From Oscillospiraceae bacterium (GTDB taxonomy: Bacteria; Bacillota; Clostridia; Oscillospirales; Ruminococcaceae), in contig JAAVZY010000065.1 of assembly GCA_022791945.1 (NCBI GenBank), positions 1-64,000 of the forward strand: 64,000 nt of DNA, in the 5' to 3' direction. Below the pieces are notes generated by a model, which saw only the letters and a list, made by a program, of their open reading frames with translations, made no database searches and was not told the origin of the DNA. The position numbers and the translations under genes are program-made. Within the stretch, counting starts at the first letter, position 1, and each line of letters begins with the position of its first letter. Positions 2,219-56,360 of this stretch are shown one piece after another.

Positions 2219-2908
2219 TTATCGTCCCTTGATATAGTCCACCACAGCCCGCGGCGATTTCTCCGGCAGCTCCAGGAAGAATTCCGGCTCGTGGATCTGC
2301 TCCAGATAATGGGCGTCTGAATCCGAAATCCGTCTGCCCTGAAAAGCAAAGCGCTCATCCGGAGGATTCAGCTCGATGCAGGCAAAGCCGTAATCCGGCG
2401 GGATGAAGCCCAGGCTCGACATGATGGAGGTCGTTGACTTGTTGGCGTGGGCCGGAATGGCCTCCCCGCCGTATTCCCGCGCCAGAGGGAGCAGCCGGTC
2501 GATGCTCAGGGTCAGCGCGTTGATCAGCAGCAGGGGCTCCTCGTCCACCGGCTCGTCCTGCTCGTTCCGAACCATCTGCTCTCCGAAGATTTCCGGCTTG
2601 TTCCGGATGGGAGGCAGATATTTGTATATCTCCTCTCCAAAGCCCAGGGCCCCCTCCAGCGTCTCAAACAGGCAGAGCATATGCACCTCCTCGCTGGTGC
2701 AGGCCTCCACGCCGGGTACCACCGTCACCCCGCACGCCTCCGCCACCCGGCAGGCAGCAGGCAGGTTCCGGGCCGAATTGTGATCCGTGAGGGCAATCAG
2801 ATCCAGCCCCAGCAGAGCCGCCATATTCACCAGGTTGTTGGGCGTCATGTCCTCGCTGCCGCAGGGGGAGAGGCAGGAGTGCATATGCAGATCATAGGAG
2901 AGCCTCAT
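2219..2908 (-). CDS. PHP-domain metal-dependent phosphoesterase
   Basis: A 229-residue PHP-fold phosphoesterase. Metal-binding motifs are visible in order: DLHMHSCLSPCG near the N terminus, ALTDHNSARN near 40, a Glu in PGVEA, AHANK near 153 and SDSDAH near 198. PHP proteins hydrolyse phosphoesters with a di- or trinuclear metal site; the substrate here is unknown. The start overlaps the stop of the DRTGG gene by four bases (ATGA), so translation is coupled. PHP genes of this type occur next to [FeFe]-hydrogenase genes in Clostridia and Thermotogae, and a role in hydrogenase-linked signalling is inferred from that context only. Confidence 0.85.
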   Translation of the reverse strand: MRLSYDLHMHSCLSPCGSEDMTPNNLVNMAALLGLDLIALTDHNSARNLPAACRVAEACGVTVVPGVEACTSEEVHMLCLFETLEGALGFGEEIYKYLPPIRNKPEIFGEQMVRNEQDEPVDEEPLLLINALTLSIDRLLPLAREYGGEAIPAHANKSTTSIMSSLGFIPPDYGFACIELNPPDERFAFQGRRISDSDAHYLEQIHEPEFFLELPEKSPRAVVDYIKGR

Positions 2909-3249
2909 AGGCCGCCGGGCTCCATGGCGCGGGCAATGGCCTGGGCAGTCTCAAAAACCGGCAGCTCGCTGGCCAGGACGCAGACGCCCTGTCCTGCCGC
3001 TTTCTCCATCCCATCCTTGTCCATGGGAATGTTTTCCGCCAAGACAATACAGCTTACGTCGCTGAGCACCGCCACCGCCACTGAGTTCATATTCCCCATG
3101 ACTGTGATCCAGGCGTCGTCCGCCTTGGCCCGGCCCATGACAATGCTGAGCAGATCGCAGCAGTAGATCCCGCGGATCTCCCGCTCCGCCCCCTCCCCCG
3201 GGCTGACCACCCGCAGCCCGGTTTTTTCAGCCAATTCCAAAGGCGTCAT
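2905..3249 (-). CDS. DRTGG-domain protein (second copy)
   Basis: A 114-residue single-domain protein resembling the DRTGG domain, an alpha/beta fold found beside CBS domains and in phosphotransacetylase. Features are the GEGAEREIRGIYCCDLLS segment and an alternating hydrophobic core. It overlaps the sensory hydrogenase gene upstream and the PHP gene downstream by four bases each. A paralogous domain is encoded at 5113-5466 in the same operon. DRTGG domains are suspected ligand or partner binders; no catalytic residue is evident. The family call is from resemblance and is moderately sure. Confidence 0.75.
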   Translation of the reverse strand: MTPLELAEKTGLRVVSPGEGAEREIRGIYCCDLLSIVMGRAKADDAWITVMGNMNSVAVAVLSDVSCIVLAENIPMDKDGMEKAAGQGVCVLASELPVFETAQAIARAMEPGGL

Positions 3250-4613
3250 TCCTTGTCATCCTTTCTGTCCGTTTTTTCCGGCTGTGCCGGAACGCCCCGG
3301 CCCTTCAGATAATTGGGGATGAAGCTGTCCAGCTTCTGAATGTTGGAGATAAGGGAATTCATATTCTCCCGGAACCGGTAGATGCACTCGTCCGGGGAGG
3401 CGATCCCCCGGACCACGTCCTCCGCCAGGGCCCGGCAGGTGGGCGCGCCGCAGGCCCCGCAGTCCAGGCCGGGCAGGCTGGCCTCCAGCTCCTCCATCTG
3501 ATTCATTTTCCGCATGGCCGCGCCGAAATCCTGATCCAGCTTGAGCACCGGGGTGTATTCCAGCGGGGTGTCCCATTTCAGCTCGCTGCCCACATTTTCT
3601 GCGTGGTTCAGGGACACCGGCAGATATTTCCGCAGGCGCTTCAGCTTGGTGCGGGCTATGTAGGGGTTTTCCACTGTGAGCACGCCGCCGATGCAGCCCG
3701 CGTTGCAGGCGTTCAGCTCGATGAAATCCAGATGCTCGAACTTTTCGTCCTCCAGATCTTCAAGGACCCGGATCACGTTTTCGATCCCGTCCGCGGCCAG
3801 GTAGTTGTCGTTGAGCAGGGCGGAGGCCTCCCCGGAGCTGCTGGCCCAGGAGACGCCGATCTTCCCCGACTGGGACTGGATAGGGGAGGCCGCGTCCGCG
3901 TGCATATGCTTCAGGAGCTTTGGGTATACGTCGCTGATGGCCACCACGGCGGAAACCTGGCTTTTTTCCGTGCCCAGGGGCATTTTGGAGGCGGTCACCT
4001 TGGCGGGGCAGGGGGAGATGAAAATAGCGCCGATCTCCTCCAGGGGAAGGCCGGTTTTTTCGTGGGCCTCCTGCTTGGCAAGCCGGGCGGCCAGCTCCAC
4101 CGGCGCGTTCAGGGGGAGCACATGATCGATCAGGCCGGGAAACCGCACCCGGATCAGCCGGGTGACCGCCGGGCAGGCGGAGCTGATCACCGGCTTGGTA
4201 ATACCCGGCTGGCGCATATAGGCCCGGGTGGCGTCGGAGACGATCTCCGCCGCCCGCGCCACCTCAAAGACATGGTCGAAGCCCAGCTCCAGCAGGGCGC
4301 TGAGCACGATTTCCACATCCTCCAGGTGGTTGAACTGGGCGTAGAGGGCAGGCGCCGGGAGGGCGATGTTGTACTTGTAGTTCTGCAGCACGTCCAGGGG
4401 ATCATAGATGGCCTTCTTGGCGTGATGGGGGCAGACCCGGATGCATTCGCCGCAGTCAATGCAGCGCTCCGGCAGGATCGCGGCCTTCCCGTCCCGGACG
4501 CGGATGGCCTCGGTGGGGCAGCGTTTGATGCAGTTGATACAGCCCATGCACTTGTCCCGATCCAGCGTGACTGAATGGAAAAAGCTCGTTGCACTGTTCA
4601 TGTCCATGACCAT
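3246..4613 (-). CDS. Sensory-type [FeFe] hydrogenase (HydS-like, group C/D)
   Basis: A 455-residue iron-sulfur protein. Residues about 18-65 hold two [4Fe-4S] ferredoxin motifs (CMGCINCIKRCP and CIDCGECIRVCP). The H-cluster domain follows with degenerate loops: SSACPAV, SPCPAK and ELNACNAGCIGG. The four Cys expected to ligate the H-cluster cubane are kept. Ala occupies the place of the proton-relay Cys that precedes the first ligand in catalytic enzymes, which is the established signature of the putatively sensory HydS enzymes. A C-terminal Cys motif (CGACGAPTC, then C in DECIY) predicts one more [4Fe-4S] cluster of the Fes type; no PAS domain is present. GGAGG lies 8 nt before the start. Neighbours (HATPase, DRTGG, PHP) support signalling rather than bulk H2 turnover. 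Confidence 0.88.
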   Translation of the reverse strand: MVMDMNSATSFFHSVTLDRDKCMGCINCIKRCPTEAIRVRDGKAAILPERCIDCGECIRVCPHHAKKAIYDPLDVLQNYKYNIALPAPALYAQFNHLEDVEIVLSALLELGFDHVFEVARAAEIVSDATRAYMRQPGITKPVISSACPAVTRLIRVRFPGLIDHVLPLNAPVELAARLAKQEAHEKTGLPLEEIGAIFISPCPAKVTASKMPLGTEKSQVSAVVAISDVYPKLLKHMHADAASPIQSQSGKIGVSWASSSGEASALLNDNYLAADGIENVIRVLEDLEDEKFEHLDFIELNACNAGCIGGVLTVENPYIARTKLKRLRKYLPVSLNHAENVGSELKWDTPLEYTPVLKLDQDFGAAMRKMNQMEELEASLPGLDCGACGAPTCRALAEDVVRGIASPDECIYRFRENMNSLISNIQKLDSFIPNYLKGRGVPAQPEKTDRKDDKE

Positions 4614-4693
4614 CGCCCGCGCCTCCGCATTTTCCGGGAGGCCGGGCGTCCTTTCTTTGTTTTGCGGAAAAGGGCAGGAGCCGGCCGCCTCCG

Positions 4694-5116
4694 TCAGTCC
4701 ATATTGACCCGCATCGTGACGGTGGTGCCCACGCCCAGGGTGGTTTCAACCTTCATATCATCGGAATTTTTCTTCATGTTGGGCAGTCCCATCCCCGCTC
4801 CGAAGCCCAGGGAACGCACCTCGTCCGGAGCGGTGGACCAGCCCTCCTGCATGGCCTTCGCGATGTCGGGAATGCCGGGGCCCTGATCCGCCAGCACCAG
4901 CTCGACCCCCTCCGGGGAAATCTCTACGTCGATCACACCTCCGTGGGCGTGGATCACCATGTTGATCTCCCCCTCGTAAAGGGCGATGGCCACCTTGCGG
5001 ATCACGTTGGGGCTCACCCCCAGCTGGCGCAGGTGCTTCTTCACCGCCGCGGAGGCTTCCCCCGCCCGGGTAAAATCATCCCCATCTATATCATAGTGGA
5101 GCCTGATATTGCTCAT
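4694..5116 (-). CDS. Stand-alone HATPase (anti-sigma/RsbW-like ATP-binding protein)
   Basis: A 140-residue Bergerat-fold ATPase with no sensor or phospho-acceptor domain. The N-box reads EGEINMVIHAHGG, the G1 box DQGPGIPD and the G2 box GFGAGMGLPNMKK. Proteins of this size and pattern resemble serine kinases or anti-sigma factors such as RsbW/SpoIIAB, so it could phosphorylate or sequester a partner. Its start overlaps the stop of the upstream DRTGG gene (ATGA); about 80 nt separate it from the sensory hydrogenase gene. A role as output module for H2 or redox sensing is inferred from position. Confidence 0.85.
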   Translation of the reverse strand: MSNIRLHYDIDGDDFTRAGEASAAVKKHLRQLGVSPNVIRKVAIALYEGEINMVIHAHGGVIDVEISPEGVELVLADQGPGIPDIAKAMQEGWSTAPDEVRSLGFGAGMGLPNMKKNSDDMKVETTLGVGTTVTMRVNMD

Positions 5117-7026: not shown

Positions 7027-7394
7027 AGAGCTTGGCAGAACTGCAAGCAATCCGTGATAAAATGAAAAACCAGATGAACGTCCGCGACGAAAGCGACGAC
7101 AAGATCCGCGTGGTTGTGGGCATGGCCACCTGCGGCATCGCCGCCGGCGCCCGCCCTGTCCTCAACGCCTTCACCGAAGAGGTGGCCAAGCGGAGCCTGG
7201 GCAATGTGTCCGTGGCCCAGACCGGCTGCATCGGCATCTGCCAGTATGAGCCTGTGGTGGAGGTCTTTACCCCGGATGGGCAGAAGACCACCTATGTAAA
7301 AATGACTGCTGAAAAGGCTGTCAAGGTGGTGGCCGATCATCTGGTGAACGGCTCCGTGGTCACCGAGTACACCATCGGCAGCGTTGCGAAATAA
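7023..7394 (+). CDS. (2Fe-2S) ferredoxin-like subunit, HndB-like
   Basis: A 123-residue thioredoxin-fold ferredoxin-like protein related to HndB of NADP-reducing hydrogenase. Cluster Cys are visible in MATCGIAAGA (Cys37) and TGCIGICQYEP. It lies between the HATPase gene (4-nt overlap) and the NuoF-like gene (14-nt gap). The role inferred from the family is an accessory electron carrier or assembly subunit of the hydrogenase complex. Confidence 0.88.
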   Translation: MKSLAELQAIRDKMKNQMNVRDESDDKIRVVVGMATCGIAAGARPVLNAFTEEVAKRSLGNVSVAQTGCIGICQYEPVVEVFTPDGQKTTYVKMTAEKAVKVVADHLVNGSVVTEYTIGSVAK

Positions 7395-7408
7395 GAGGAG
7401 GATAAAGA

Positions 7409-9196
7409 ATGTATCGTTCCCATGTATTAGTTTGCGGCGGTACCGGCTGTACCTCTTCCGGCAGCCAGCAGATTATCAGCACTCTGGAGCAGGAGATTGC
7501 CCGCAACGGCCTGGATAAGGAAGTCAAGGTCATCAAGACCGGCTGCTTTGGCCTGTGCGCCCTTGGCCCGATCATGGTTGTCTATCCCGAGGGCAGCTTC
7601 TACTCTGCGGTGAAACCCGAGGATATCCCGGAGATTGTCTCCGAGCACCTGCTGAAGGGCCGGATCGTCAAGCGGCTTCTCTACTCCGAGACTGTGGAGG
7701 AGGACACTGTCAAATCCCTGAACGAAACCCAGTTCTACAAGAAGCAGCACCGTGTCGCCCTGAAAAACTGCGGCGTGATCGATCCCGAGAACGTTGAGGA
7801 GTACATTGCCTATGAGGGCTACGCGGCCCTGGGCAAGGTGCTCACTGAAATGACCCCCCAGCAGGTCATTGACACTGTGCTGGAAAGCGGCCTCCGGGGC
7901 CGGGGCGGCGCCGGCTTCCCCACCGGGCGGAAATGGTCCATGGCCGCCGCCAACCAGGCGGATCAGAAGTATGTCTGCTGCAATGCCGACGAGGGCGACC
8001 CCGGCGCATTCATGGATCGCTCCATCCTGGAGGGCGATCCCCATGTGGTGCTGGAGGCCATGGCCATCGCTGGCTATGCCATCGGCGCGACCCAGGGCTA
8101 CATCTATGTCCGGGCTGAGTACCCCATTGCGGTGAAGCGGCTGGAGATTGCCATTGCCCAGGCCCATGAGTACGGCCTGCTGGGCGACCACATCTTCGGC
8201 ACGGACTTCAGCTTTGACATAGGCATCCGGCTGGGCGCCGGCGCGTTCGTCTGCGGCGAGGAAACCGCTCTGATGACCTCCATTGAGGGCAAGCGGGGCG
8301 AGCCTCATCCCCGTCCCCCCTTCCCGGCGCTGAAGGGCCTGTGGCAGAAGCCCACCATCCTCAACAACGTGGAAACCTGGGCCAACGTCCCCCAAATCAT
8401 CCTGAAGGGGCCGGATTGGTTCAAGAGCATGGGCACTGAAAAATCCTCCGGCACCAAGGTGTTCGCCCTGGGCGGCAAGATACATAACACCGGCCTGGTG
8501 GAGGTTCCCATGGGCACCACCCTCCGGGAGATCATTGAGGAAATCGGCGGCGGCATTCCCAACGGGAAGAAGTTCAAGGCCGCGCAGACCGGCGGCCCCT
8601 CCGGCGGCTGCATCCCGGCCTCCCTCATCGACACCCCTATCGACTACGACAGCCTGATGGCCATCGGCTCCATGATGGGCTCTGGCGGCCTGATTGTTAT
8701 GGACGAGGACACCTGTATGGTGGACATCGCCAAGTTCTTCCTGGAATTCACCGTGGATGAGTCCTGCGGCAAGTGCGCCCCCTGCCGGATTGGCACTAAG
8801 CGGATGTATGAGATGCTTTCCCAGATCTGCAAGGGCAATGCCACGCTGGAGGATATCGACAAGCTGGAGGAGCTCTGCTACCAGATCAAGGCCGGTTCTC
8901 TCTGCGCCCTGGGCCAGACCGCTCCCAACCCGGTGCTCTCCACCCTGAAGTACTTCCGGGACGAGTATGAGGCGCACGTGGTTGAGAAGAGATGCCCCGC
9001 CGGGGTCTGCAAGGATCTGCTTACCTACGAGATCGACGCCGAGAAGTGCAAGGGCTGCACCCTCTGTGCCCGTCAGTGCCCGGTGGGCGCGATTACCGGC
9101 GTAGTGAAGCAGCCACACGTCATCGACAAGTCCAAGTGCATCAAGTGCGGCGCCTGCATGGAGAAATGCCGGTTTGGTGCCATTTCGAAGAAGTAA
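7409..9196 (+). CDS. hydB: Hydrogenase flavoprotein subunit HydB / NuoF-like
   Basis: A 595-residue NuoF/HndC-type subunit that binds FMN and NAD(H) and is where electrons from NADH enter the complex. Domain order: N-terminal thioredoxin-like [2Fe-2S] region (CGGTGCTSSG and GCFGLCALGP), the FMN-binding GRGGAGFPTGRKW near 160, the NAD-binding GAGAFVCGEETALM near 280, the [4Fe-4S] site SCGKCAPCR near 455, and a C-terminal pair of ferredoxin motifs (CKGCTLCARQC and CIKCGACMEKC). This long form with extra ferredoxin clusters is typical of bifurcating HydABC. AGGAGG lies 9 nt before the start. Confidence 0.95.
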   Translation: MYRSHVLVCGGTGCTSSGSQQIISTLEQEIARNGLDKEVKVIKTGCFGLCALGPIMVVYPEGSFYSAVKPEDIPEIVSEHLLKGRIVKRLLYSETVEEDTVKSLNETQFYKKQHRVALKNCGVIDPENVEEYIAYEGYAALGKVLTEMTPQQVIDTVLESGLRGRGGAGFPTGRKWSMAAANQADQKYVCCNADEGDPGAFMDRSILEGDPHVVLEAMAIAGYAIGATQGYIYVRAEYPIAVKRLEIAIAQAHEYGLLGDHIFGTDFSFDIGIRLGAGAFVCGEETALMTSIEGKRGEPHPRPPFPALKGLWQKPTILNNVETWANVPQIILKGPDWFKSMGTEKSSGTKVFALGGKIHNTGLVEVPMGTTLREIIEEIGGGIPNGKKFKAAQTGGPSGGCIPASLIDTPIDYDSLMAIGSMMGSGGLIVMDEDTCMVDIAKFFLEFTVDESCGKCAPCRIGTKRMYEMLSQICKGNATLEDIDKLEELCYQIKAGSLCALGQTAPNPVLSTLKYFRDEYEAHVVEKRCPAGVCKDLLTYEIDAEKCKGCTLCARQCPVGAITGVVKQPHVIDKSKCIKCGACMEKCRFGAISKK

Positions 9197-10957: not shown

Positions 10958-10964
10958 GGGCAGG

Positions 10965-11021
10965 ACCTTGGGGGCGGAGCCCCCAAACCTCCGCCAAAGG
11001 GACTCGTCCCTTTGGAATCCC
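10965..11021. repeat. Half-element of the palindromic repeat family (CTTGGGG-type end)
   Basis: Two hairpins directly after hydA: CTTGGGGGC-GGA-GCCCCCAA and CCAAAGGGACTCGTCCCTTTGG, followed by AATCCCA. The same modules start the copy at 55853. The internal and far-end parts are absent, so this is a solo end. Confidence 0.7.
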
Positions 11022-11035
11022 ACGATACGTTTAGA

Positions 11036-11070
11036 GGGAGAGGGTTCTTTAGGAACCCTCTCCCTTTGTT
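11036..11070 (+). terminator. Intrinsic terminator of the hydrogenase operon
   Basis: GGGAGAGGGTTC (11036-11047) pairs with GAACCCTCTCCC (11053-11064) over a 5-nt loop, followed by TTTGTT. A 12-bp perfect stem placed 80 nt after hydA ends the operon. Confidence 0.8.
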
Positions 11071-11080
11071 GCCTAGTGCA

Positions 11081-11232
11081 TCGAAGGGCAAGGCCGCGAG
11101 ACAGAGTCTCGCGTCCCCGCTGCGCCGCTAGCGGCGCAGCTCAGAATTCGGCGAAGCCGAATTCCTAAGTGCGTTGTGAAACAACGCACTGCGGTGACTC
11201 GAGGGCAGCGCCCTCGAGGTCTTGCCCTTCGA
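11081..11232. repeat. Compact palindromic repeat element (type copy, five hairpins)
   Basis: The clearest compact copy. The 12-bp terminal inverted repeat is TCGAAGGGCAAG at 11081 and CTTGCCCTTCGA at 11221. Between them are five consecutive perfect hairpins: GCGAGAC-AGA-GTCTCGC, TGCGCCGC-TA-GCGGCGCA, GAATTCGGC-GAA-GCCGAATTC, GTGCGTTGT-GAA-ACAACGCAC and CTCGAGGGC-AGC-GCCCTCGAG. It is non-coding; the reading frame that passes through it upstream of the DegV gene is incidental. Confidence 0.9.
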
Positions 11233-15600: not shown

Positions 15601-16367
15601 GAAGGGAAGGCCGCGAGAGCTCTGCTCTCGCGCTCTCGCCAAGGAGAGCCAGCTCCCCTTGGATTCCCGTCTTTTTAAGGGCGAAGGGGGTGGGGGTTCA
15701 AGTCTGTACAGACTTGTTACTTCCTGCCTCGCTGACACTTCCTGCGTGGTCGATCGCCCGCCTACCCATTTTTTCGTAAAGAAAAAATTCATCCCCATAG
15801 GCGGCGCAAACGGTGCGACGCAGAAAGTCCCGAGCGTGTTCTGTTACGCTCGGAACTTTCTGCAAGAAAGGGCTTTGTGCGACGTTCGGAATCCCCCAGT
15901 CAGGGCTACCGCCTGACGGCGGCATCCCTGCCATGCCCCATACGTTCCAAAGGAACGTATGGGAGAGGGGACCGCCGCCGGACAAGAGGGACGGTGGTGG
16001 AGGAAGGATTCCGATCGTGGCACAAAATCCCTCCCCGCAGAGCCTGTGAGCGTGGTAGTATTACGCTCATACCCTCTGCGCCGCAAGGAAGTACCCCCGC
16101 ACGCTGGAGGGAGCTTTTTTCTTTACGAAAAAAGCGTCCTGCGGGAATCAAACTCTCTGCGTGGCAGGAAGCCGGAAGTCTGTACAGACTCAACCACCCC
16201 TTTTCCGCCCTTAAAAATCCCTTAAAAATAATGGGAATCCAATGGGAATCCCTTCCCGATGCGCCGCCAGCGGCGCATCTCAGAATTCGGCGAAGCCGAA
16301 TTCCTAAGTGCGTTGTGAAACAACGCACTGCGGAGACTCGAGGGCAGAGCCCTCGAGGTCTTCCCGC
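15601..16367. repeat. Extended palindromic repeat element (about 770 bp)
   Basis: Full extended copy beginning GAAGGGAAGGCCGCGAG and ending CCTCGAGGTCTTCCC. The interior is roughly symmetric. The palindrome CAAGTCTGTACAGACTTG (15699-15716) recurs as AAGTCTGTACAGACT at 16176-16190. TTTTTCGTAAAGAAAAA near 15768-15790 recurs inverted at 16115-16133. The right end has the same hairpins as the compact copy (GCCGCCAGCGGC, GAATTCGGC-GAA-GCCGAATTC, GTGCGTTGT-GAA-ACAACGCAC, CTCGAGGGC-AGA-GCCCTCGAG). It fills the whole gap between the pap and HD genes; short open frames inside are not credible genes. Confidence 0.88.
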
Positions 16368-19296: not shown

Positions 19297-19490
19297 TTGC
19301 AGATCCTTCCTTTCATGATAAAGTCCCGCATTCGGGGCGGGAGGGTACACGCATGGTTCCGCTTCCGCAGGAAATTACCTGGAGTATACCACACCGGCTT
19401 GGCATATGCAAGCAGTTTCCAAAGAGCGCAGGACTTGATCCCAGCCCCTCAACGTGATATCCTTATAACCTGAGCAGGGAGCGCTGGTCG

Positions 19491-20385
19491 GGAGAAGGCC
19501 GCGAGAGCTCTGCTCTCGCGCTCTCGCCAAGGGGATTTAATCCCCGTGGAACCCGTAATTTTTTGGGGTTATTGGGGGCAAGTCTGTACAGACCTGGTAC
19601 TCCCTGCCTCGCTGATACTCCCCGCAGAGACGATCGCCCGCCTACCCATTTTTTCGTAAAGAAAAAATTCAGCTCCATAGGCGGCGCAGACACTGCGACG
19701 CAGAATGTTTCGAGCGTGTTCTGCTGCGCTCATACTCTCTGCGGAGAGGGGGCTTTGTGCGACGTTCGGAATCCCCCAGTCAGGGCTACCGCCTGTCGGC
19801 GGCATCCCTGCCATGCCCCGGACGTTCCTTCGGAACGTCTAACAAGGGGGCCGAGCCAACACTCTGCGTTGATAGACGCTCTGTACGTAGTTAAGGGGCA
19901 CTCATCCTCTTAAATTCGCAGAAAGCGTCTTTATAACGCAGAAAGTTGGCTTGCCTCCCTTTAACAAGGGAGGGGGACCGCCGTCGGGCCAAAGGGACGT
20001 CGGCGGTGGAAGGATTCCCATGGGAGCACAAAGTCCCCCCGCCCGCACATAATACCAATCGGAAGCACTATCCCAGTCTGTGCAGGAACTCCTGTGCGGC
20101 GCAGGAAGTATCCCGCAGGCAGGGTGGAGCTTTTTTCTTTACGAAAAAAGCGTACTGCGTGAATCAGACCATCTGCGTGGCAAAGGGAAGGAAGTCTGTA
20201 CAGACTCAACCACCCCTTTTTCCGCCCCTAAAAAAGCCCTTAAAAAATAATGGGAATCCAAGGGGAATCCCTTCCCGATGCGCCGCCAGCGGCGCATCTC
20301 AGAATTCGGCGAAGCCGAATTCCTAAGTGCGTTGTGAAACAACGCACTGCGGAGCTCGAGGCAGAGCCTCGAGGTCTTGCCCTTC
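19491..20385. repeat. Extended palindromic repeat element (about 895 bp, with nested insert)
   Basis: Longest copy in the window. Its left end has the AGAGCTCTGCTCTCG hairpin and CCAAGGGGATTTAATCCCC. The interior contains both the TTTTTCGTAAAGAAAAA block and its inverted partner, and the right end has the five-hairpin set closing with CTTGCCCTTC. It is about 120 bp longer than the copy at 15601, which is accounted for by the insertion at 19849-19961. Confidence 0.88.
19849..19961. mobile_element. Small inverted-repeat insertion (MITE-like) with 9-bp target duplication
   Basis: A 113-bp insert inside the extended repeat. It is flanked by direct repeats TAACAAGGG (19840-19848 and 19962-19970). 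Its ends form an inverted repeat: AGCCAAC-AC-TCTGCGTT (19854-19870) against AACGCAGA-AA-GTTGGCT (19935-19951). The sibling repeat at 15601 and the one at 32291 lack this block at the equivalent place. It encodes no protein and would need a transposase supplied from elsewhere. Confidence 0.7.
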
Positions 20386-22456: not shown

Positions 22457-23811
22457 TGGGAAGCATACGGCAGGATCCTGCCTTTTTCAAGAGCTTTTTC
22501 TCCCTGACACTGACCATCGCCCTGCAAAATCTGATTGTGTTCGGGGTAGGGCTGGCGGATAACCTGATGCTGGGGGGCTACAGTGAAGCGGCGCTCTCCG
22601 GGGTGGCGCTGGCGAATCAGATCCAGTTCCTTCTCCATATGATGGTCATGGGCATCGGGGAGGGGATTGTGGTGCTCTCCTCCCAATACTGGGGACGGAG
22701 GGAGATGGAGCCTGTCCGGCGGGTGATCACCATCGGCCTCCGGCTGGGGCTGGGGGTGGCCCTGCTGCTGTGGGCGGTGATGTTCTGCTTCCCGGCCCAG
22801 GTGCTGGGCCTGCTGGCGGATGACGCCGCAGCCATTGGGGAGGGCGTGAAGTACCTCCGGATCATCTGCTTCACCTATTTTTTCTTCGCTGTAACCAACA
22901 TTCTGCTGGCGGCGCTCCGGAGCGTGGAAACAGTGCGGATTGCCTTTCTGGTGTCCCTGTCCACGCTGGTGATCGACGTCTGCCTGAATTATATGCTGAT
23001 CTACGGGCGTTTCGGCGCTCCCAGGATGGGAACGCAGGGAGCGGCTGTCGCGACCCTGATCGCCCGTGTCACAGAGTTCCTGATCGTCACCCTTTACCTC
23101 TTCCTGGGAGACAAACGGATCCGTTACCGTCCAAGGGATCTGCTCCATGGGGATTGCGCGCTTTTCGGGACGTTCCTCCGGGTGGGGCTGCCGGTGCTGC
23201 TGTCCAATACCATCTGGGGAATTGCCCAGGCGGTGCAGACCTCCATTCTGGGACATCTGGGCGGGCCGTCCATTGCCGCCAACAGCATTGCCTCCACCGT
23301 ATTCCAGATTGTGACGGTCATCTGCTACGGAGCCGGCAGCGCCTCCGGGGTTCTGACAGGAAAGACCATTGGGGAAGGGGCGCCGGAGAAGATCCGCCGG
23401 TACGCCAAGCCTCTCCAGGGGATTTATCTGGTAATCGGGCTGTGCACGGGGCTGACCCTGCTCCTCTGCCGGGACGGGATTCTGGGGCTGTACGCCATCT
23501 CGGGGGAAACGAAGGAGCTGGCGCGGCAGTTCATGGCGGTGCTGTCGGTGACGGTGGTGGGCACCTCCTATCAGGTTCCGGTGTTGACCGGTCTGGTGCG
23601 GGGCGGGGGCGACACCCGGTTCGTGCTGTACAACGATTCGATTTTTATGTGGGGGATAGTGATTCCATCCGCGCTGACTGCGGCCTATGTGCTGGGACTG
23701 CCGCCGGCGGCAGTGTTCGCCTGCCTGAAATGCGACCAGATTCTCAAGTGCTTCGTGGCCCTGGTGAAGGTGAACAAGGGGCATTGGATCCGTACACTGA
23801 CGCAGACGTGA
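22456..23811 (+). CDS. MATE family efflux transporter
   Basis: A 451-residue multidrug and toxic compound extrusion (MATE) antiporter with 12 predicted membrane segments in two homologous halves. The first has FGVGLADNLMLGGYSEAALSG and the second SILGHLGGPSIAANSIAST, the expected DinF/NorM-type repeats. The ATG overlaps the upstream stop by one base. The substrate is not predictable from sequence. Confidence 0.92.
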   Translation: MGSIRQDPAFFKSFFSLTLTIALQNLIVFGVGLADNLMLGGYSEAALSGVALANQIQFLLHMMVMGIGEGIVVLSSQYWGRREMEPVRRVITIGLRLGLGVALLLWAVMFCFPAQVLGLLADDAAAIGEGVKYLRIICFTYFFFAVTNILLAALRSVETVRIAFLVSLSTLVIDVCLNYMLIYGRFGAPRMGTQGAAVATLIARVTEFLIVTLYLFLGDKRIRYRPRDLLHGDCALFGTFLRVGLPVLLSNTIWGIAQAVQTSILGHLGGPSIAANSIASTVFQIVTVICYGAGSASGVLTGKTIGEGAPEKIRRYAKPLQGIYLVIGLCTGLTLLLCRDGILGLYAISGETKELARQFMAVLSVTVVGTSYQVPVLTGLVRGGGDTRFVLYNDSIFMWGIVIPSALTAAYVLGLPPAAVFACLKCDQILKCFVALVKVNKGHWIRTLTQT

Positions 23812-24401
23812 GGGGAAGACCTCGAGGGCGCTGCCCTCGAGCTCCTGCCAAGGGGAGCTGGCTCCCCTTGGATTCCCGTCTTTTTAAGGGCGAAGGGGGT
23901 GGGGGGCAAGTCTGTACAGACTTTTTACTCCCTGCCTCGCTGATCGTTCCTTCGTGGTCGATCGCCCGCCTACCCATTTTTTCGTAAAGAAAAAATTCAT
24001 CCCCATAGGCGGCGCAGAGACTGCGACGCAGAAAGTCCCGGGCGTGTTCTGTTACGCTCGGGACTTTCTATGTGGGATGAAACGCTGTGCTGCGCTCAAA
24101 ATCCCTGTGCGGCGCAGGAAAGTATCCCGCACGCAGGAGGGAGCTTTTTTCTTTACGAAAAAAGCGTACTGCGGGAATTAGACTCTCTGCGTGGCAGGGA
24201 GCAGCAAGTCTGTACAGATTTAATCCCACCCCTTTTCCGCTCTTAAAAAGCCCTTAAAAATAATGGGAATCCAAGGGGAATCCCTCCCCGATGCGCCGCT
24301 GGCGGCGCATCTCAGAATTCGGCGAAGCCGAATTCCTAGGTGCGTCGTTTCACGACGCACCGCAGAGACGCGAGGACAGAGCCCTCACGGCCTTGCCCTT
24401 C
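23812..24401. repeat. Extended palindromic repeat element (about 590 bp)
   Basis: Left end GGGGAAGACCTCGAGGGC-GCT-GCCCTCGAG then CCAAGGGGAGCTGGCTCCCCTTGG; right end closes with CTTGCCCTTC. The right-hand hairpin reads GTGCGTCGT-TTC-ACGACGCAC, with a C-G pair in place of the T-A pair of the copies at 11081 and 15601. Much of the centre is shorter than in the 15601 copy. Confidence 0.85.
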
Positions 24402-29791: not shown

Positions 29792-30309
29792 GGGGAGGGC
29801 AAGACCTCGAAGGGCTCTGCCCTCCGAGCCTCCCGCCAAGGGGGTTAAATCCCCTTGGAACCCGTAATTTTTGGGGTATAGGGTGTTGGATTTCGGCCCC
29901 TGCCTCGCTGTTGCTTCCCGCAGAGACGATCGCCCGCCTACCCATTTTTTCGTAAAGAAAAAATTCAGCCCCACGTGCGGGGCAGAGACTGCGACGCAGA
30001 AAGGCTCAAGCGTGTTCTGCGTAGGAAGCCTGGCGCGGCGCAGGAAGTCCCCCGCACACAGGAAGGAGCTTTTTTCTTTACGAAAAAAGCGTACTGCGGG
30101 AATCAGGCTCTCTGCGTGGCAGAGAGAAGGAAGTCTCTACAGACTTGACCTCCAACCCCTTTTTCGCCCTTTTAAATAACGGGAATCCAAGGGGAATCCC
30201 TTCCCGATGCGCCGCCAGCGGCGCATCTCAGAATTCGGCGAAGCCGAATTCCTAAGTGCGTTGTGAAACAACGCACTGCGGAGACTCGAGGCAGAGCCTC
30301 GAGGTCTTG
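29792..30309. repeat. Extended palindromic repeat element (about 515 bp)
   Basis: Starts GGAGGGCAAGACCTCGAAGGGC-TCT-GCCCTCCGAG, followed by CCAAGGGGGTTAAATCCCCTTGG, both inverted CGTAAAG blocks (near 29950 and 30075), then the hairpins GCCGCCAGCGGC, GAATTCGGC-GAA-GCCGAATTC, GTGCGTTGT-GAA-ACAACGCAC and CTCGAGGC-AGA-GCCTCGAG. It ends GGTCTTGAGATCC, so the last terminal bases are degraded. Confidence 0.85.
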
Positions 30310-30341
30310 AGATCCTAAACAGGCTCTAAGGAGGAATCACT

Positions 30342-32290: not shown

Positions 32291-32768
32291 TCGAAGGGCA
32301 AGGCCGCAAGACGCTGTCTCGCGTCTCTGCGGTGCGTCGTGAAACGACGCATCGGGGAGGGATTCCCCTTGGATTCCCATTATTTTCAAGGGCTTTTTAA
32401 GGGCGGAAAGGGGTGGGGTCAAGTCTGCACAGACTTTCGGTTTTCTGCCACGCAGAGGGTCTGATTCCCGCAGTATGCTTTTTTCGTAAAGAAAAAAGCT
32501 CCCTCCTGCGTGCGGGGTACTTCCCGCGCCGCACAGGGGTTTCTGTGCAGATTGGGATAGTGGTTCCGATCAGTTTGTGCAGGCGGGGCATTCTGTGCGC
32601 CTGAGGGAATCCTTCCGCCACCGCCGCTCCTTCGGAGCAACGGCGGTTCCCTCTCCCATACGTTCCGAAGGAACGCCTGGGGGATTCCGTGCGTAGCACT
32701 GTGCTCCCCCTCCGGAGAAAGTATGAGCGTAACAGAACCTGCCCGAAACTTTCTGCGTCGCCCGACTG
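32291..32768. repeat. Partial extended palindromic repeat element, inverted orientation
   Basis: Begins TCGAAGGGCAAGGCCGCAAGAC-GCT-GTCTCGCG, then GTGCGTCGT-GAA-ACGACGCA, GGGGAATCC, the CAAGTCTGCACAGACTT palindrome (near 32420), the TTTTTCGTAAAGAAAAA block (near 32482) and the central palindromes. The second outer arm is missing; it stops near the tyrS promoter at GACTTTCTGCGTCGCC-like sequence. Confidence 0.8.
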
Positions 32769-35032: not shown

Positions 35033-35118
35033 TACAGCTTTATACAGGAAAACAACGCTTTAGGGCGATTTCTGCGAGCCCTGACAGCCTAGGGATACGG
35101 GAGGATTATTCCAAGCCT

Positions 35119-36024
35119 ATGAACCGATATGATTCCATCGACTGCCCAATCTGCGGGAAGCCTCTGAAGGATGGGGATGTGGTGGTCTGCCCGGAATGCG
35201 GAGCGCCCTATCATCGAAGCTGCTGGCAGGAGGAGGGCTGCTGCGTCTTCCCGGAGCTGCACCAGCAGGGCCGGGAGTGGGAGCCTCCTGTCCGGGAAGC
35301 GCCCCATCCCCCTGGGTTTGTCTGCTCCCGGTGCGGCACCGTAAATCCGCATCAGGGGCTTTTCTGTCAGACCTGCGGGAATCAGCTCAGGGAGGGCCCT
35401 GTGCCGTCCCCTTTCCCGGCCATGGGCGGAATCCCGCTGAATCCCTATACCACCCCCTTCGGCGGCCTTTCCCCCGAGGAGGAGATCGACGGCATCCCCG
35501 CCCAGGATCTGGCGGTATTCGTCAGCCAGAATTCCCACTACTTCCTGCCCCTGTTCAAGCGGCTCTCCACCATGCGGGCGCGGATGATCAACTGGGCCGC
35601 CTTTCTGTTCGGCGGCGGGTATTATCTCTACCGGAAGATGTATGGACTGGGGCTGGCGGCGCTGCTGATTCAGGGGCTGGTGTGGGCGCCTTACTTTCTG
35701 ATGTATATCCAGGCCCTGACCTCCGGGGCAGTGACCGAGACTGCCATGGTGGAGATCGGCGGCGTGTCTTATCTTTGTACATTTTTGGATCTGGTGGTGC
35801 GGCTTTTCTGTGGGATGAGCGCCAACGGCTTCTATTTCAGCCACTGCAAGCGGAAGATCTCCCGGATCAAGGCGCGGGATCAGGCGCCGGAGGATTACCG
35901 CGCGGAGCTGGCCAGAAGGGGCTCCACTGCAGCCAAGCTGATCAGCGTGATCCTGGTGGGATGCGGCCTGCTTCTGCTCGTCTCCTTCCTGCTTCTGCTG
36001 CCCTCCCTGCTGGGAGGCGGCTAG
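35119..36024 (+). CDS. RING-like/zinc-ribbon membrane protein (DUF2628-like)
   Basis: A 301-residue protein. Residues 10-40 form a RING-finger-like double zinc site (CPICGKPL, CPECGAPYHRSC), residues about 75-97 a zinc ribbon (CSRCG, CQTCG). After a linker, a DUF2628-like region begins with NSHYFLPLFKRL and MINWAAFLFGGGYYLYRKMYGLG, with hydrophobic helices near 170-225 and 275-300. It is a membrane protein with a cytoplasmic metal-binding head; function unknown. The GGGAGG Shine-Dalgarno is rather far (14 nt) from the ATG, but no better start exists. Confidence 0.8.
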   Translation: MNRYDSIDCPICGKPLKDGDVVVCPECGAPYHRSCWQEEGCCVFPELHQQGREWEPPVREAPHPPGFVCSRCGTVNPHQGLFCQTCGNQLREGPVPSPFPAMGGIPLNPYTTPFGGLSPEEEIDGIPAQDLAVFVSQNSHYFLPLFKRLSTMRARMINWAAFLFGGGYYLYRKMYGLGLAALLIQGLVWAPYFLMYIQALTSGAVTETAMVEIGGVSYLCTFLDLVVRLFCGMSANGFYFSHCKRKISRIKARDQAPEDYRAELARRGSTAAKLISVILVGCGLLLLVSFLLLLPSLLGGG

Positions 36025-36030
36025 AGGCGC

Positions 36031-36080
36031 ACCTCCTTTCGAGGCTTCGCATATACTATGAATGATCGGCAATGCCGATC
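36031..36080 (+). promoter_or_regulatory. SigK/SigE-like promoter and palindrome before the Cys-rich gene
   Basis: CATATACTA at 36050-36058 fits the sporulation sigma-K -10 pattern CATAnnnTA, with AC (36031-36032) 17 nt upstream as the short -35. A sigma-A style -35 is absent. Just downstream, GATCGGCA-A-TGCCGATC (36064-36080) is a perfect palindrome that could be an operator or an mRNA hairpin. The sigma factor assignment is a pattern match only. Confidence 0.4.
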
Positions 36081-36125
36081 TGACGCGATGCTCCCTTTGG
36101 AGCCTCTGAAAGGAAGGAACCCTCT

Positions 36126-36458
36126 ATGGAGCCCTCTTCTGTTTTTTGTTCCTGCTGCTCTCCCTGCTGTGATTTCCACGGCGTTCTCATCTGCCGGGTT
36201 GAAGATGAGCCGTCGGAGGTCCCGGATAACAGCTGCAACTGCGGCTGTGACTGCGACGATTCCGACTACCTTGATCCGGATTTCAGCTGGCCCCCGATAG
36301 GCGGCTGTGGCTGCGGCGGCTGTCAAAGCCGGCCCTGCTGCTGCCATTCCTGCTGCCATTGCTGTTGCTGCTGCCGCCAGCAGTCCTCCAATAATTCCGG
36401 AAGTGAAAATTCCAATGGCTGCTGCTTTAAAATCCGCATCAGCCCCTGTGATGATTAA
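36126..36458 (+). CDS. Cysteine-rich small protein of unknown function
   Basis: A 110-residue protein with 26 Cys (24%), clustered as FCSCCSPCC at the N terminus, CNCGCDC near 37-43, CGCGGC near 61-66 and a dense HSCCHCCCCC block near 74-83. The middle is acidic and the C terminus ends SPCDD. No known metallothionein or ferredoxin spacing is recognised. AAGGAAGGA lies 6-7 nt before the ATG, and a perfect terminator follows the stop by 7 nt, so it is a genuine transcription unit. Cys-rich proteins of this kind include exosporium proteins such as CdeC and metal-binding proteins; neither role is proven here. Confidence 0.7.
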   Translation: MEPSSVFCSCCSPCCDFHGVLICRVEDEPSEVPDNSCNCGCDCDDSDYLDPDFSWPPIGGCGCGGCQSRPCCCHSCCHCCCCCRQQSSNNSGSENSNGCCFKIRISPCDD

Positions 36459-37462: not shown

Positions 37463-37607
37463 GGGGAAGACCTCGAGGACGCTGTCCTCGAGTCTCCGCA
37501 GTGCGTTGTTTCACAACGCACTTAGGAATTCGGCTTCGCCGAATTCTGAGATGCGCCGCTGGCGGCGCATTGCAGAGCGCGAGACAGAGTCTCGCGGCCT
37601 TGCCCTT
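37463..37607. repeat. Compact palindromic repeat element, inverted relative to 11081 copy
   Basis: The five hairpins of the 11081 copy in reverse order: CTCGAGGAC-GCT-GTCCTCGAG type end, GTGCGTTGT-TTC-ACAACGCAC, GAATTCGGC-TTC-GCCGAATTC, TGCGCCGC-TG-GCGGCGCA and GCGAGAC-AGA-GTCTCGC, closing with CTTGCCCTTA. It fills the gap between hslO and valS. Confidence 0.9.
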
Positions 37608-41297: not shown

Positions 41298-43415
41298 ATG
41301 TTCGAAAACTACCGCGTATTTGAAACCACCTTTGCCGGCCGTCCCCTGAAGGTGGAAACCGGCAAAACCTGCTGTCTCTCCAACGGCTCCTGCTGGATCC
41401 GCTATGGCGAAACCACTGTCATGGTCAATGTCACCATGTCCGCCCGTCCCCGTGACGGCATCGACTTCTTCCCCCTCTCTGTAGACTATGAGGAGAAGCT
41501 CTACGCCGCCGGCAAAATCCCCGGCTCCTTCCTAAAGCGGGAGGGCCGTCCCACCGAAAACGCCATCCTCACCTCCCGGATGATTGACCGGCCTATGCGC
41601 CCCCTCTTCCCCGAGGGCCTGCGGAACGACGTTTCCATTGTAGCCACGGTTCTTTCCACAGATGTGGACAACTCCCCGGAGATCAGCGCCCTCATCGGCG
41701 CTTCCATTGCCGTATCCATTTCCGACATCCCCTTCAACGGCCCTATTGCCGGCGTCAGCGTGGGACTGGTGGACGGTCAGATCGTCTTGAACCCCAACAC
41801 TGCCCAGCGTGAGAAATCCGATTTGGATCTCACTGTGGCAGCTTCCGCTGACAAGATCGTCATGATCGAGGCAGGCGCCAACGAGGTTGATAACGAAACC
41901 ATGCTGGAGGCAATCCGGCAGGCCCATGAAGAAATCAAAAAGATGGTTGCCTTTATCAAATCCATGCAGGACGAGATCGGCAAGCCCAAGGCGGAGTTTG
42001 AGCACGTCTCCATCAACTACGATTTCCTGGCCGCTATTGAAGCTGCCTTCGGGGATCGGGTGAAGGAGGCTCTGGACACTGACGACAAGAATATCCGGGA
42101 CGCCCGGATGCAGCCCATCATCACGGAAATCGAGGAGCGGTTCGCTGAGGAATACGCTGACGATATGTCCACCCTGGATGAGGTGATGTACAAGCTCCAG
42201 AAGAAGATCGTCCGGGCCTGGCTGTTCGAGGGCAAGCGGGTGGATGGCCGTGGTATGGACGAGATTCGCCCCCTGGCCGCAGAGGCGGGGATGCTTCCCC
42301 GTGTCCACGGCTCCGGTATGTTCACCCGGGGTCAGACTCAGGTGCTGACCATCGCCACCCTGGGCGCGCTCCGGGACGCCCAGATTCTGGACAGCATTGA
42401 CGAGCGTGAAGAAAAACGGTATATGCACCAATACAATTTCCCCTCCTACTCCGTAGGCGAGACGAAGCCCAGCCGGGGCCCCGGCCGCCGGGAAATCGGT
42501 CACGGCGCTCTGGCCGAGCGGGCGCTGGTGCCGGTGCTCCCCTCTGTGGATGAGTTCCCCTACTCCATCCGGATGGTATCCGAGGTGCTGTCCTCCAACG
42601 GATCCACCTCTCAGGGCTCCATCTGCGGCTCCACTCTGGCGCTGATGGATGCGGGCGTTCCCATCCGCACCCCTGTTGCGGGCATCTCCTGCGGTCTGAT
42701 CACCCGGGACGATGGTTCCTACCAGACCATGGTGGACATTCAGGGCCTGGAGGACTTCTATGGGGATATGGATTTCAAGGTAGGCGGCACCCATAAGGGC
42801 ATCACTGCCATTCAGGTAGATATCAAGGTGGACGGCCTGACTATGGACATCATTGCCGAGGCCTTTGAAAAGACCCGGAAGGCCCGGCTGTATATCCTGG
42901 ACGAGGTGATGGCGAAGGCCATCAGCGAGCCCAGGACGGAGGTTTCCCAGTACGCGCCCAAGGTGCTCAAGACCTTTGTGAAGCCGGATAAGATCCGCGA
43001 GGTTATCGGCAGCGGCGGCAAGGTGATTCAGAAGATCTGCGCCGACTGCAATGTGCAGATTGATCTGGAGGACGACGGCAGCTGCGTGATTATGGGTGTG
43101 GATATCGGCAACGCCCGCCGCGCTCTTTCTATTGTAGAGAGCATTGCCAACGATCCGGAGATCGGCGCCATCTACAAGGGCGTTGTTACCCGGCTGATGA
43201 ACTTCGGCGCTTTTGTGGAAATCGCTCCCGGCAAGGAGGGGCTGGTTCACATCTCCAAGCTGGCCGAGAAGCGGGTTGAGAAGGTCGAGGACGTGGTTAA
43301 CGTGGGCGACACCATCTTTGTCAAGGTGACCGAGATTGATTCTCAGGGCCGGATCAACCTCTCCCGCAAGGACGCTATGGCTGACATCGCCGCCAAGCAG
43401 GATAAGAAGCACTAA
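41298..43415 (+). CDS. pnp: Polyribonucleotide nucleotidyltransferase (PNPase)
   Basis: A 705-residue phosphorolytic 3'-5' exoribonuclease of RNA turnover. Two RNase PH domains (about 10-225 and 315-535) flank a helical domain; the second has GRGMDEIRPL, GQTQVLT and GSTLALMDAGVP. The KH domain (near 560, IREVIGSGGKVIQKI) and the S1 domain (near 630-695, GVVTRLMNFGAFVEI) follow. AAGGAGG lies 7 nt before the ATG at 41298; the earlier in-frame ATG has no such signal. Confidence 0.97.
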   Translation: MFENYRVFETTFAGRPLKVETGKTCCLSNGSCWIRYGETTVMVNVTMSARPRDGIDFFPLSVDYEEKLYAAGKIPGSFLKREGRPTENAILTSRMIDRPMRPLFPEGLRNDVSIVATVLSTDVDNSPEISALIGASIAVSISDIPFNGPIAGVSVGLVDGQIVLNPNTAQREKSDLDLTVAASADKIVMIEAGANEVDNETMLEAIRQAHEEIKKMVAFIKSMQDEIGKPKAEFEHVSINYDFLAAIEAAFGDRVKEALDTDDKNIRDARMQPIITEIEERFAEEYADDMSTLDEVMYKLQKKIVRAWLFEGKRVDGRGMDEIRPLAAEAGMLPRVHGSGMFTRGQTQVLTIATLGALRDAQILDSIDEREEKRYMHQYNFPSYSVGETKPSRGPGRREIGHGALAERALVPVLPSVDEFPYSIRMVSEVLSSNGSTSQGSICGSTLALMDAGVPIRTPVAGISCGLITRDDGSYQTMVDIQGLEDFYGDMDFKVGGTHKGITAIQVDIKVDGLTMDIIAEAFEKTRKARLYILDEVMAKAISEPRTEVSQYAPKVLKTFVKPDKIREVIGSGGKVIQKICADCNVQIDLEDDGSCVIMGVDIGNARRALSIVESIANDPEIGAIYKGVVTRLMNFGAFVEIAPGKEGLVHISKLAEKRVEKVEDVVNVGDTIFVKVTEIDSQGRINLSRKDAMADIAAKQDKKH

Positions 43416-43700
43416 AAGGGAAGGCCGCGAGACTCTGTCTCGCGTCTCTGCGGTGCGTTGTTTCACAACGCACCTAGGAATTCGGCTTCGCCGAATTCTG
43501 AGATGCGCCGCCAGCGGCGCATCGGGGAGGGATTCCCCTTGGATTCCCATTGTTTGAAGGGTTTTGAAGGGCGGAAAAAGGGGTGGGGTCAAGTCTGCAC
43601 AGACTTTCTTCCTCCTGCCACGCAGACAGCCTGATTCCCGCAATACGCTTTTTTCATAAAGAAAAAAGCTCCCCGGTGCGGGATCCAAGTCTGTACACCC
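43416..43700. repeat. Truncated extended palindromic repeat, inverted orientation
   Basis: Begins AAGGGAAGGCCGCGAGAC-TCT-GTCTCGCG, then GTGCGTTGT-TTC-ACAACGCAC, GAATTCGGC-TTC-GCCGAATTC, TGCGCCGC-CA-GCGGCGCA, the CAAGTCTGCACAGACTT palindrome and a TTTTTCATAAAGAAAAA block with one change. It breaks off near 43700. From 43700 to 43880 only scattered fragments of the family are recognisable. Confidence 0.8.
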
Positions 43701-43880
43701 CCGCCGGGTGTCTGTCCTTGATCTTTGCAGCGGGCAGATGCGTTGCAGCGATTGTTCCGCACGCAGGAAATATCAGCGAGGCAAGGACTGCAATTCTGCC
43801 CCCATAACCTCAAAAGGCAGGACTCTAAGGGCCGTTTGAAGATCGGAAAAGCAGGCGGATATATCACAACCTGAAACTGA

Positions 43881-44807: not shown

Positions 44808-45062
44808 CGTGCGACGCGGTGAGCTCCGAGCAGGTTCTGCTACGCTCATACTCTCCGCGGGGTGAAACGCTGTGCCACACACGCAAGAGGGAGCTTTTTT
44901 CTTTACGAAAAAAGCGTACTGCGTGAATCAGACTATCTGCGTGGCAGAAAGTCGGAAGTTTGTACAGACTTACCCCCCTTTTCCGCCCTTAAAATAATGG
45001 GATTCCAAAGGGACGAGTCCCTTTGGCGGAGCTCGAGGCAGAGCCTCGAGGTCTTTCCCTTC
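44808..45062. repeat. Right half of an extended palindromic repeat
   Basis: Contains the CTTTACGAAAAAAGCG block (near 44900), the AAGTTTGTACAGACTT palindrome, CCGCCCTTAAAATAATGG, CCAAAGGGACGAGTCCCTTTGG, CTCGAGGC-AGA-GCCTCGAG and the end GGTCTTTCCCTTC. The left arm is missing. Confidence 0.8.
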
Positions 45063-46212: not shown

Positions 46213-46344
46213 GAGAAGGTCAAACACTCTCCTGTCCGAAGCGCAAAGCCCTGGAAGCGCCGCCTCAACCCGCGCGGCCCATCGTAAAACGGCGGACAAT
46301 CCGCCGCCTGCCAAAGCAGACACCAGTTGGGACGTACAGACCTG

Positions 46345-46538
46345 CATTCCGCACAGGGGAGCTTTTTTCTTTACGAAAAAAGCGTTCTGCGTGAATCAGA
46401 CTCTCTGCGCGGCAGGAACAAGGAAGTCTCTACAGACTTGATCCACAACCCTTTTCGCCCTTAAAAAAGACGGGAATCCAAGGGGGCAAGTCCACTTGGC
46501 AGAGGTTTGGGGACAGCGTCCCCAAGGTCTTGCCCTTC
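46345..46538. repeat. Right half of an extended palindromic repeat (CTTGGGG-type end)
   Basis: Has the CTTTACGAAAAAAGCG block (near 46370), AAGTCTCTACAGACTT, CGCCCTTAAAAAAGACGG, a decayed CCAAGGGGGCAAGTCCACTTGG stem, TTGGGGAC-AGC-GTCCCCAA and the end CTTGCCCTTC. The left arm is missing. Confidence 0.8.
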
Positions 46539-55852: not shown

Positions 55853-56360
55853 GGAAGGGGGAAAGACCTTGGGGACGCTGTCCCCAAACCTCTGCCAAAG
55901 GGACGCGTCCCTTTGGAATCCCATCTTTTTTAAGGGCGGAGATGGGGGTGGGTCAAGTCTGTGCAGACTTCCTCCTTCCTGCCACGCAGAAAGTCTGATT
56001 CCCGCAGTACGCTTTTTTCGTAAAGAAAAAAGCTCCTTCCTGTGTGCGGGGTAGTTCCTGCGGCGCACAGAGGTTTCTGCGCAGACTCAGCGTGGCACAG
56101 CGTTTCACCCCGCAGAGAGTATGCGCGTAGCAGAACACGCTCGGGACTTTCTGCGTCGTACGGTCTGCGCCGCCTATGGAGCTGAATTTTTTCTTTACGA
56201 AAAAATGGGTAGGCGGGCGATCGACCACGTAAGGAGTATCAGCGAGGCAGGGGGACGGGCGCTTGCGCCCGTCCCCACCCCCCACCCCCAAAAAGAAGGG
56301 AATCCAAGGGGATTTAATCCCCTTGGCCGAGCTCGAGGCAGAGCCTCGAGGTCTTCCCCT
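55853..56360. repeat. Extended palindromic repeat element (about 510 bp)
   Basis: Left end of the CTTGGGGAC-GCT-GTCCCCAA type with CCAAAGGGACGCGTCCCTTTGG; inside are the CAAGTCTGTGCAGACTT palindrome, TTTTTCGTAAAGAAAAA (near 56018) and the inverted CTTTACGAAAAA (near 56193); right end CCAAGGGGATTTAATCCCCTTGG, CTCGAGGC-AGA-GCCTCGAG, GGTCTTCCCC. The two ends belong to different hairpin types. It splits the GH38 gene from manA. Confidence 0.87.

Follow-up and report, generated by a model that had tools for sequence, protein, structure and literature searches.

A cysteine-rich reading frame between a RING gene and hslO

The window, that is, the whole 64,000-nucleotide stretch of DNA that was analysed, carries on its plus strand a gene for a small, very cysteine-rich protein, here called P0001. 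Features assigned to this gene and its flanks are as follows.

36031–36058, plus strand: sigma-K-type promoter ACCTCCTTTCGAGGCTTCGCATATACTA, with an AC −35 element, a 17-nt spacer and a CATATACTA −10 element
36064–36080, plus strand: small hairpin GATCGGC-AAT-GCCGATC, 7 bp and perfect (fold z = −2.4), near the predicted transcript start
36110–36117, plus strand: Shine-Dalgarno sequence AAGGAAGG, read from the sequence, 8 nt 5' of the P0001 ATG
36126–36458, plus strand: P0001 gene, 110 aa with 26 Cys, from translation, Cys count and codon score
36466–36503, no strand assigned: 17-bp perfect hairpin, from folding, a probable terminator common to P0001 (plus) and hslO (minus)

Translation of 36126–36458 gives 110 residues, 26 of them cysteine (23.6%) and five of these in a single CCCCC run, in agreement with the original prediction of 24% cysteine and a run of five. 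The protein also contains seven non-overlapping CC pairs, CxC as well as CC motifs, and three histidines. Read from stop to stop, the P0001 frame has 21% cysteine and the next richest 10.9% among the 514 frames in the window that reach 60 aa or more, and the binomial probability of the P0001 content is ~3e-21 against the 1.9% cysteine of window genes. Its Cys codons are mixed (19 TGC and 7 TGT) and interrupted by non-repetitive stretches. In synonymous codon score the frame reaches 0.16, compared with a gene mean of 0.14 and with −0.03 (sd 0.14) for spurious ORFs, which is compatible with coding without proving it, the separation between genes and spurious ORFs not being sharp; a 154-aa Ala-rich ORF antisense to P0001 scores −0.06. 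P0001 combines the traits of Cys-rich self-assembling spore-surface proteins, namely clustered high cysteine content and, as judged by eye, no evident signal peptide. The AlphaFold model (mean pLDDT 41) was uninformative and was set aside.

The good Shine-Dalgarno sequence claimed earlier is in place before the ATG, whereas the claim of a perfect terminator is an overstatement. The arms of the hairpin 3' of P0001 (36466–36482 and 36487–36503, 17 nt each) are indeed 100% complementary, with a fold z of −5.5, but the plus-strand tail is only TTTGTGCG, a weak U-tract, which is why it is missing from the output of the terminator scan, and the hairpin lies between the convergent P0001 and hslO and probably serves both genes. 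At the other end, the transcript is predicted to start at about 36065, and the hairpin at 36064–36080 is possibly an mRNA-stabilising 5' structure. A scan for sigma-A promoters gave no site directly 5' of the P0001 ORF, and Rfam gave nothing above gathering scores. The profiled neighbours are a RING-DUF2628 gene, hslO and a DUF1858 gene, with tyrS and valS named from their translations, and neither these profiles nor the translations read revealed an adjoining modifying enzyme or exporter of the kind that would mark a RiPP precursor. The gene at 35080–36024 encodes a prokaryotic RING finger (PF14446), a zinc ribbon and DUF2628; every one of the eight genus genomes has it, with varying neighbours.

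The upstream promoter motif in the genome and the genus

A sigma-K-type promoter, overlooked in the original prediction, sits in the gap that separates P0001 from the stop codon of the RING gene, with its −35 AC at 36031–36032 and its −10 CATATACTA at 36050–36058. It is the sole match to AC-N17-CATANNNTA in the 64-kb window, in which 0.24 matches are expected, and shuffling gives P = 0.0015 for the motif in P0001's own 130-nt upstream stretch; the motif was first seen at P0001 and afterwards tested on other genes. Across the 2.75-Mb genome AC-N17-CATANNNTR matches 41 times, which corresponds to a chance of ~6e-4 per 80-nt upstream stretch, and this list was compiled regardless of downstream gene function. 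In Clostridioides difficile, sigma-K and sigma-E have a common −10 element and differ in the −35, AC versus ATA (PMC3789822), and the Bacillus subtilis sigma-K motif consists of blocks of 5 and 10 nt that are 14–16 nt apart (PMC517825). The element at P0001 has what defines the sigma-K promoter class here: the AC −35, the CATAnnnTR −10 and the spacing of dpaA in the genus.

A minority of the 41 genomic matches lie 5' of known spore genes, and many fall inside genes, where they are presumably due to chance. Genes that start behind the motif with a Shine-Dalgarno sequence include P0001, dpaA (NF006162, 5.9e-86), cotJA (PF11007, 5e-18), an Amidase_6 gene, a DUF4397 gene and the 64-aa, 18-Cys gene described below. 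All eight genus genomes contain dpaA and cotJA as well as spoIVA. At dpaA the motif is present with a spacer of exactly 17 nt in 8 of 8 genomes, beginning 83–119 nt 5' of the profile match, and control loci of the genus give an expectation of ~0.003 motif matches per 120 nt. The support from cotJA is weaker than that from dpaA because the motif holds in only three of the eight genomes, one of them with a 16-nt spacer. dpaA is sigma-K-dependent in both C. difficile and B. subtilis, as are bclA1-3 in C. difficile (PMC3789822).

The same genome contains a second Cys-rich gene, which encodes 64 aa with 18 Cys (G000, contig C23, ~7380–7443, minus strand; loci L139/L175) and lies behind the same sigma-K-type motif as P0001. 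Its product, MCGNNCGGFGGNCSWILIIILLLVCCGGCG..., has a hydrophobic stretch and is unmatched in Pfam and NCBIfam.

Searches for homologues and cysteine-rich loci in relatives

By sequence comparison, P0001 is an orphan among the collections searched. Pfam, NCBIfam, PHROGs and PDB returned no match, which bears out the earlier remark that no known family was recognised. Specifically, it matched no metallothionein family profile in Pfam or NCBIfam, and neither these databases nor PDB, through which the comparison was made, placed it in the CdeC/CdeM, CotY/CotZ/ExsY or CsxA families. No homologue was found in 100 relatives, in 398 genomes of the family (where weak matches translate to unrelated frames), or in 84,980 species (GTDB220) plus viral contigs searched with exact 8-mer seeds, which detect close relatives only. 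Positional orthologues were also absent: other genes follow the RING-DUF2628 gene in the sister species, and in the sister genomes hslO sits elsewhere with no Cys-rich ORF adjoining. For the neighbouring gene, the closest relatives that carry a name are Oscillospiraceae/Clostridia MAGs. The frame is thus conserved in none of the genomes searched, an outcome that the original prediction had counted against the gene; it is weak counter-evidence, since limitation to one lineage is common among Cys-rich exosporium proteins.

BclA-like collagen genes that encode a Cys-rich head and have the motif upstream occur in five genomes of the genus, namely the sister species G007, G001 and G002 as well as G003 and G006. 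In the first three the locus is a candidate exosporium locus.

L095 (G007), 2402–3409: BclA-like collagen gene and Cys-rich gene, adjoining pyrB
L096 (G001), ~2461–3445: BclA-like collagen gene and Cys-rich gene, adjoining pyrB
L067 (G002), 3942–5100: BclA-like collagen gene and Cys-rich frame, adjoining pyrB

The Cys-rich gene lies directly 3' of the bclA-like gene in G007 (~3161–3409) and G001 (~3239–3445) and is preceded by AC-N17-CATACAATG; its G007 product has 19 Cys in 83 aa. The corresponding frame in G002 has an interruption close to its start and seems to have decayed. The genome from which the window comes also contains a bclA-like gene (L125), which lacks an exact match to the motif, and no such gene was noticed within the 64-kb window around P0001. 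In spore formers, collagen-repeat and Cys-rich genes are often ≤20 kb apart, and unrelated Cys-rich proteins build similar disulfide-linked spore arrays (PMC7333573).

The Cys-rich genes that follow bclA in G007 and G001 resemble P0001 in genus, promoter motif and spacing, and differ in genomic place; their products carry C-terminal CCGCCC runs. Another pair, from a different genus of the family, encodes proteins of P0001 size (107–110 aa, 26–28 Cys, CC repeats) and, unlike P0001, lacks the AC-N17-CATA motif. These genes (L046, 1255–1587, minus strand, in G403; L047, 1252–1575, minus strand, in G434) are orphans whose product has CC repeats at the N-terminus and is conserved in the two species, and the L047 protein is unmatched in Pfam and NCBIfam. 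Matches to a CCxCCCC DNA pattern in the 398 genomes were mostly out-of-frame (TGC)n and were discarded, yet they led to L046/L047 and to L067. Homology of P0001 to the other Cys-rich proteins found was set aside, as alignments against shuffled P0001 show no clear signal beyond composition: 19 of 300 shuffles aligned as well to the G007 protein and 171 of 300 to the G001 protein, and with 8–10 of 300 the L046/L047 proteins are not demonstrably homologous either.

Among named systems, CdeM and CdeC of the C. difficile exosporium are, like P0001, small or medium-sized and Cys-rich, with CC-type repeats and no conserved domain. CdeM occurs in C. difficile alone and has the repeat CNCCNCCRK (PMC6101409), and CdeC self-assembles redox-dependently in E. 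coli (PMC7677010). However, CdeM has 8.7% cysteine against 23.6% in P0001, the CdeC/CdeM repeats NPC, CCRQGKGK and CNCCNCCRK are not seen in P0001, and there is no family match. CotY/CotZ of B. subtilis, ExsY/CotY of the B. cereus group and CsxA of C. sporogenes are, like P0001, unrelated Cys-rich proteins. They self-assemble into disulfide-linked spore layers (PMC7333573), whereas P0001 is without a Pfam or NCBIfam match to them and its assembly is putative.

A probable spore-envelope protein and the alternatives

P0001 is probably a late mother-cell spore-envelope protein that is cross-linked into the coat or exosporium. Directly observed are the ORF and its lack of homologues, the promoter motif, and the tie of this motif to sporulation genes both in the genome and in the genus; the position of P0001 behind the sigma-K-type promoter of the genus makes it most likely a disulfide-cross-linked building block of the outer spore shell. 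Late in sporulation, RNA polymerase with sigma-K would transcribe the gene in the mother cell, using the promoter at 36031–36058. The protein would be made in the mother-cell cytoplasm without a signal sequence and deposited on the forespore, where its clustered cysteines (CC, CCC and CCCCC) may cross-link it densely through disulfides, both to further copies of itself and to other Cys-rich proteins of the coat, the exosporium or the BclA head, so that the outer spore layer becomes tough. On this reading P0001 would act like CdeM, CotY/ExsY or CsxA while lying outside their families by the tests made.

The original prediction offered three roles, of which the spore-surface layer gains support and metal sequestration and redox buffering gain none. 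The surface role is favored by the occurrence of the motif at dpaA, bclA-like, cotJA and other Cys-rich genes, by the presence of sporulation genes in the genome, and by the Cys-rich genes that adjoin bclA-like genes in sister species. Against the other two stand the empty metallothionein searches, the fact that no metal or redox regulator was seen adjoining P0001, and a promoter that is apparently developmental.

Metallothionein-like sequestration or storage of thiophilic metals by P0001, perhaps in or on the spore, is unlikely. The high cysteine content with CxC and CC motifs, the three histidines, the small size and the predicted cytoplasmic location would all suit such a function, and bacterial metallothioneins of the SmtA/BmtA type are likewise small and Cys-rich. 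However, P0001 matches no metallothionein family in Pfam or NCBIfam, no metal-responsive regulator or transporter was seen beside it, and its promoter is of a developmental type common to spore genes. Metal binding and cross-linking could be compatible in one protein, and a spore location alone would not rule out metal binding.

It is very improbable that P0001 is not a protein at all, its frame being either low-complexity (TGC)n or a shadow of the 154-aa Ala-rich ORF on the other strand. The absence of a homologue from all genomes searched and the existence of that antisense frame speak for such an artifact. Nonetheless, promoter, Shine-Dalgarno sequence, ATG and hairpin are properly spaced on the plus strand, codon preference is gene-like in the plus frame and not in the antisense frame, and the mixture of TGC and TGT codons with non-repetitive stretches between them argues against a simple repeat. 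We give least credence to P0001 as a sporulation-controlled thiol redox buffer or oxidant sink without a structural part: it has many thiols and adjoins hslO, encoding a redox-regulated chaperone, near a gene for a DUF1858 redox-disulfide protein, but hslO is convergent and in sister genomes occupies other places, where no Cys-rich ORF adjoins it, the DUF1858 gene is >1.3 kb upstream, and the cysteine runs look like those of spore-surface proteins, unlike known redox proteins.

As a spore-envelope protein, P0001 adds a new, lineage-restricted protein to an established functional group that does not form one sequence family. It supports the proposal that different spore formers use unrelated Cys-rich proteins for the same job (PMC7333573). 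Calibrated on dpaA, the promoter motif singles out two Cys-rich proteins in this genome, the orphan P0001 with its 26 Cys and a second one, and the approach suggests a homology-free way of listing spore-surface proteins in such genomes. To our knowledge, hardly anything is known about the spore surface in uncultured gut bacteria of the Oscillospiraceae type, the proteins of which have diverged too far for homology detection. It is conceivable, although rather doubtful, that P0001 founds a class of sequence-unrelated, species-restricted and very Cys-rich spore proteins of such gut bacteria, with fast emergence and turnover under a conserved sigma-K promoter and possibly combining cross-linking with metal loading.

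As a separate observation, the window contains many dispersed repeats of ~65–190 nt in both orientations, mostly intergenic and with an abundance of small inverted repeats.

10958–11226, 15601–16365, 19489–20384, 23810–24398, 29897–30313 and 32294–32551, both orientations: dispersed repeats, first part
37464–37577, 43415–43721, 44870–45060, 46329–46535 and 55859–56360, both orientations: dispersed repeats, second part

These are possibly a MITE/REP-like family, and a stretch that resembles them in translation also occurs on contig C63 of the same genome (L146).
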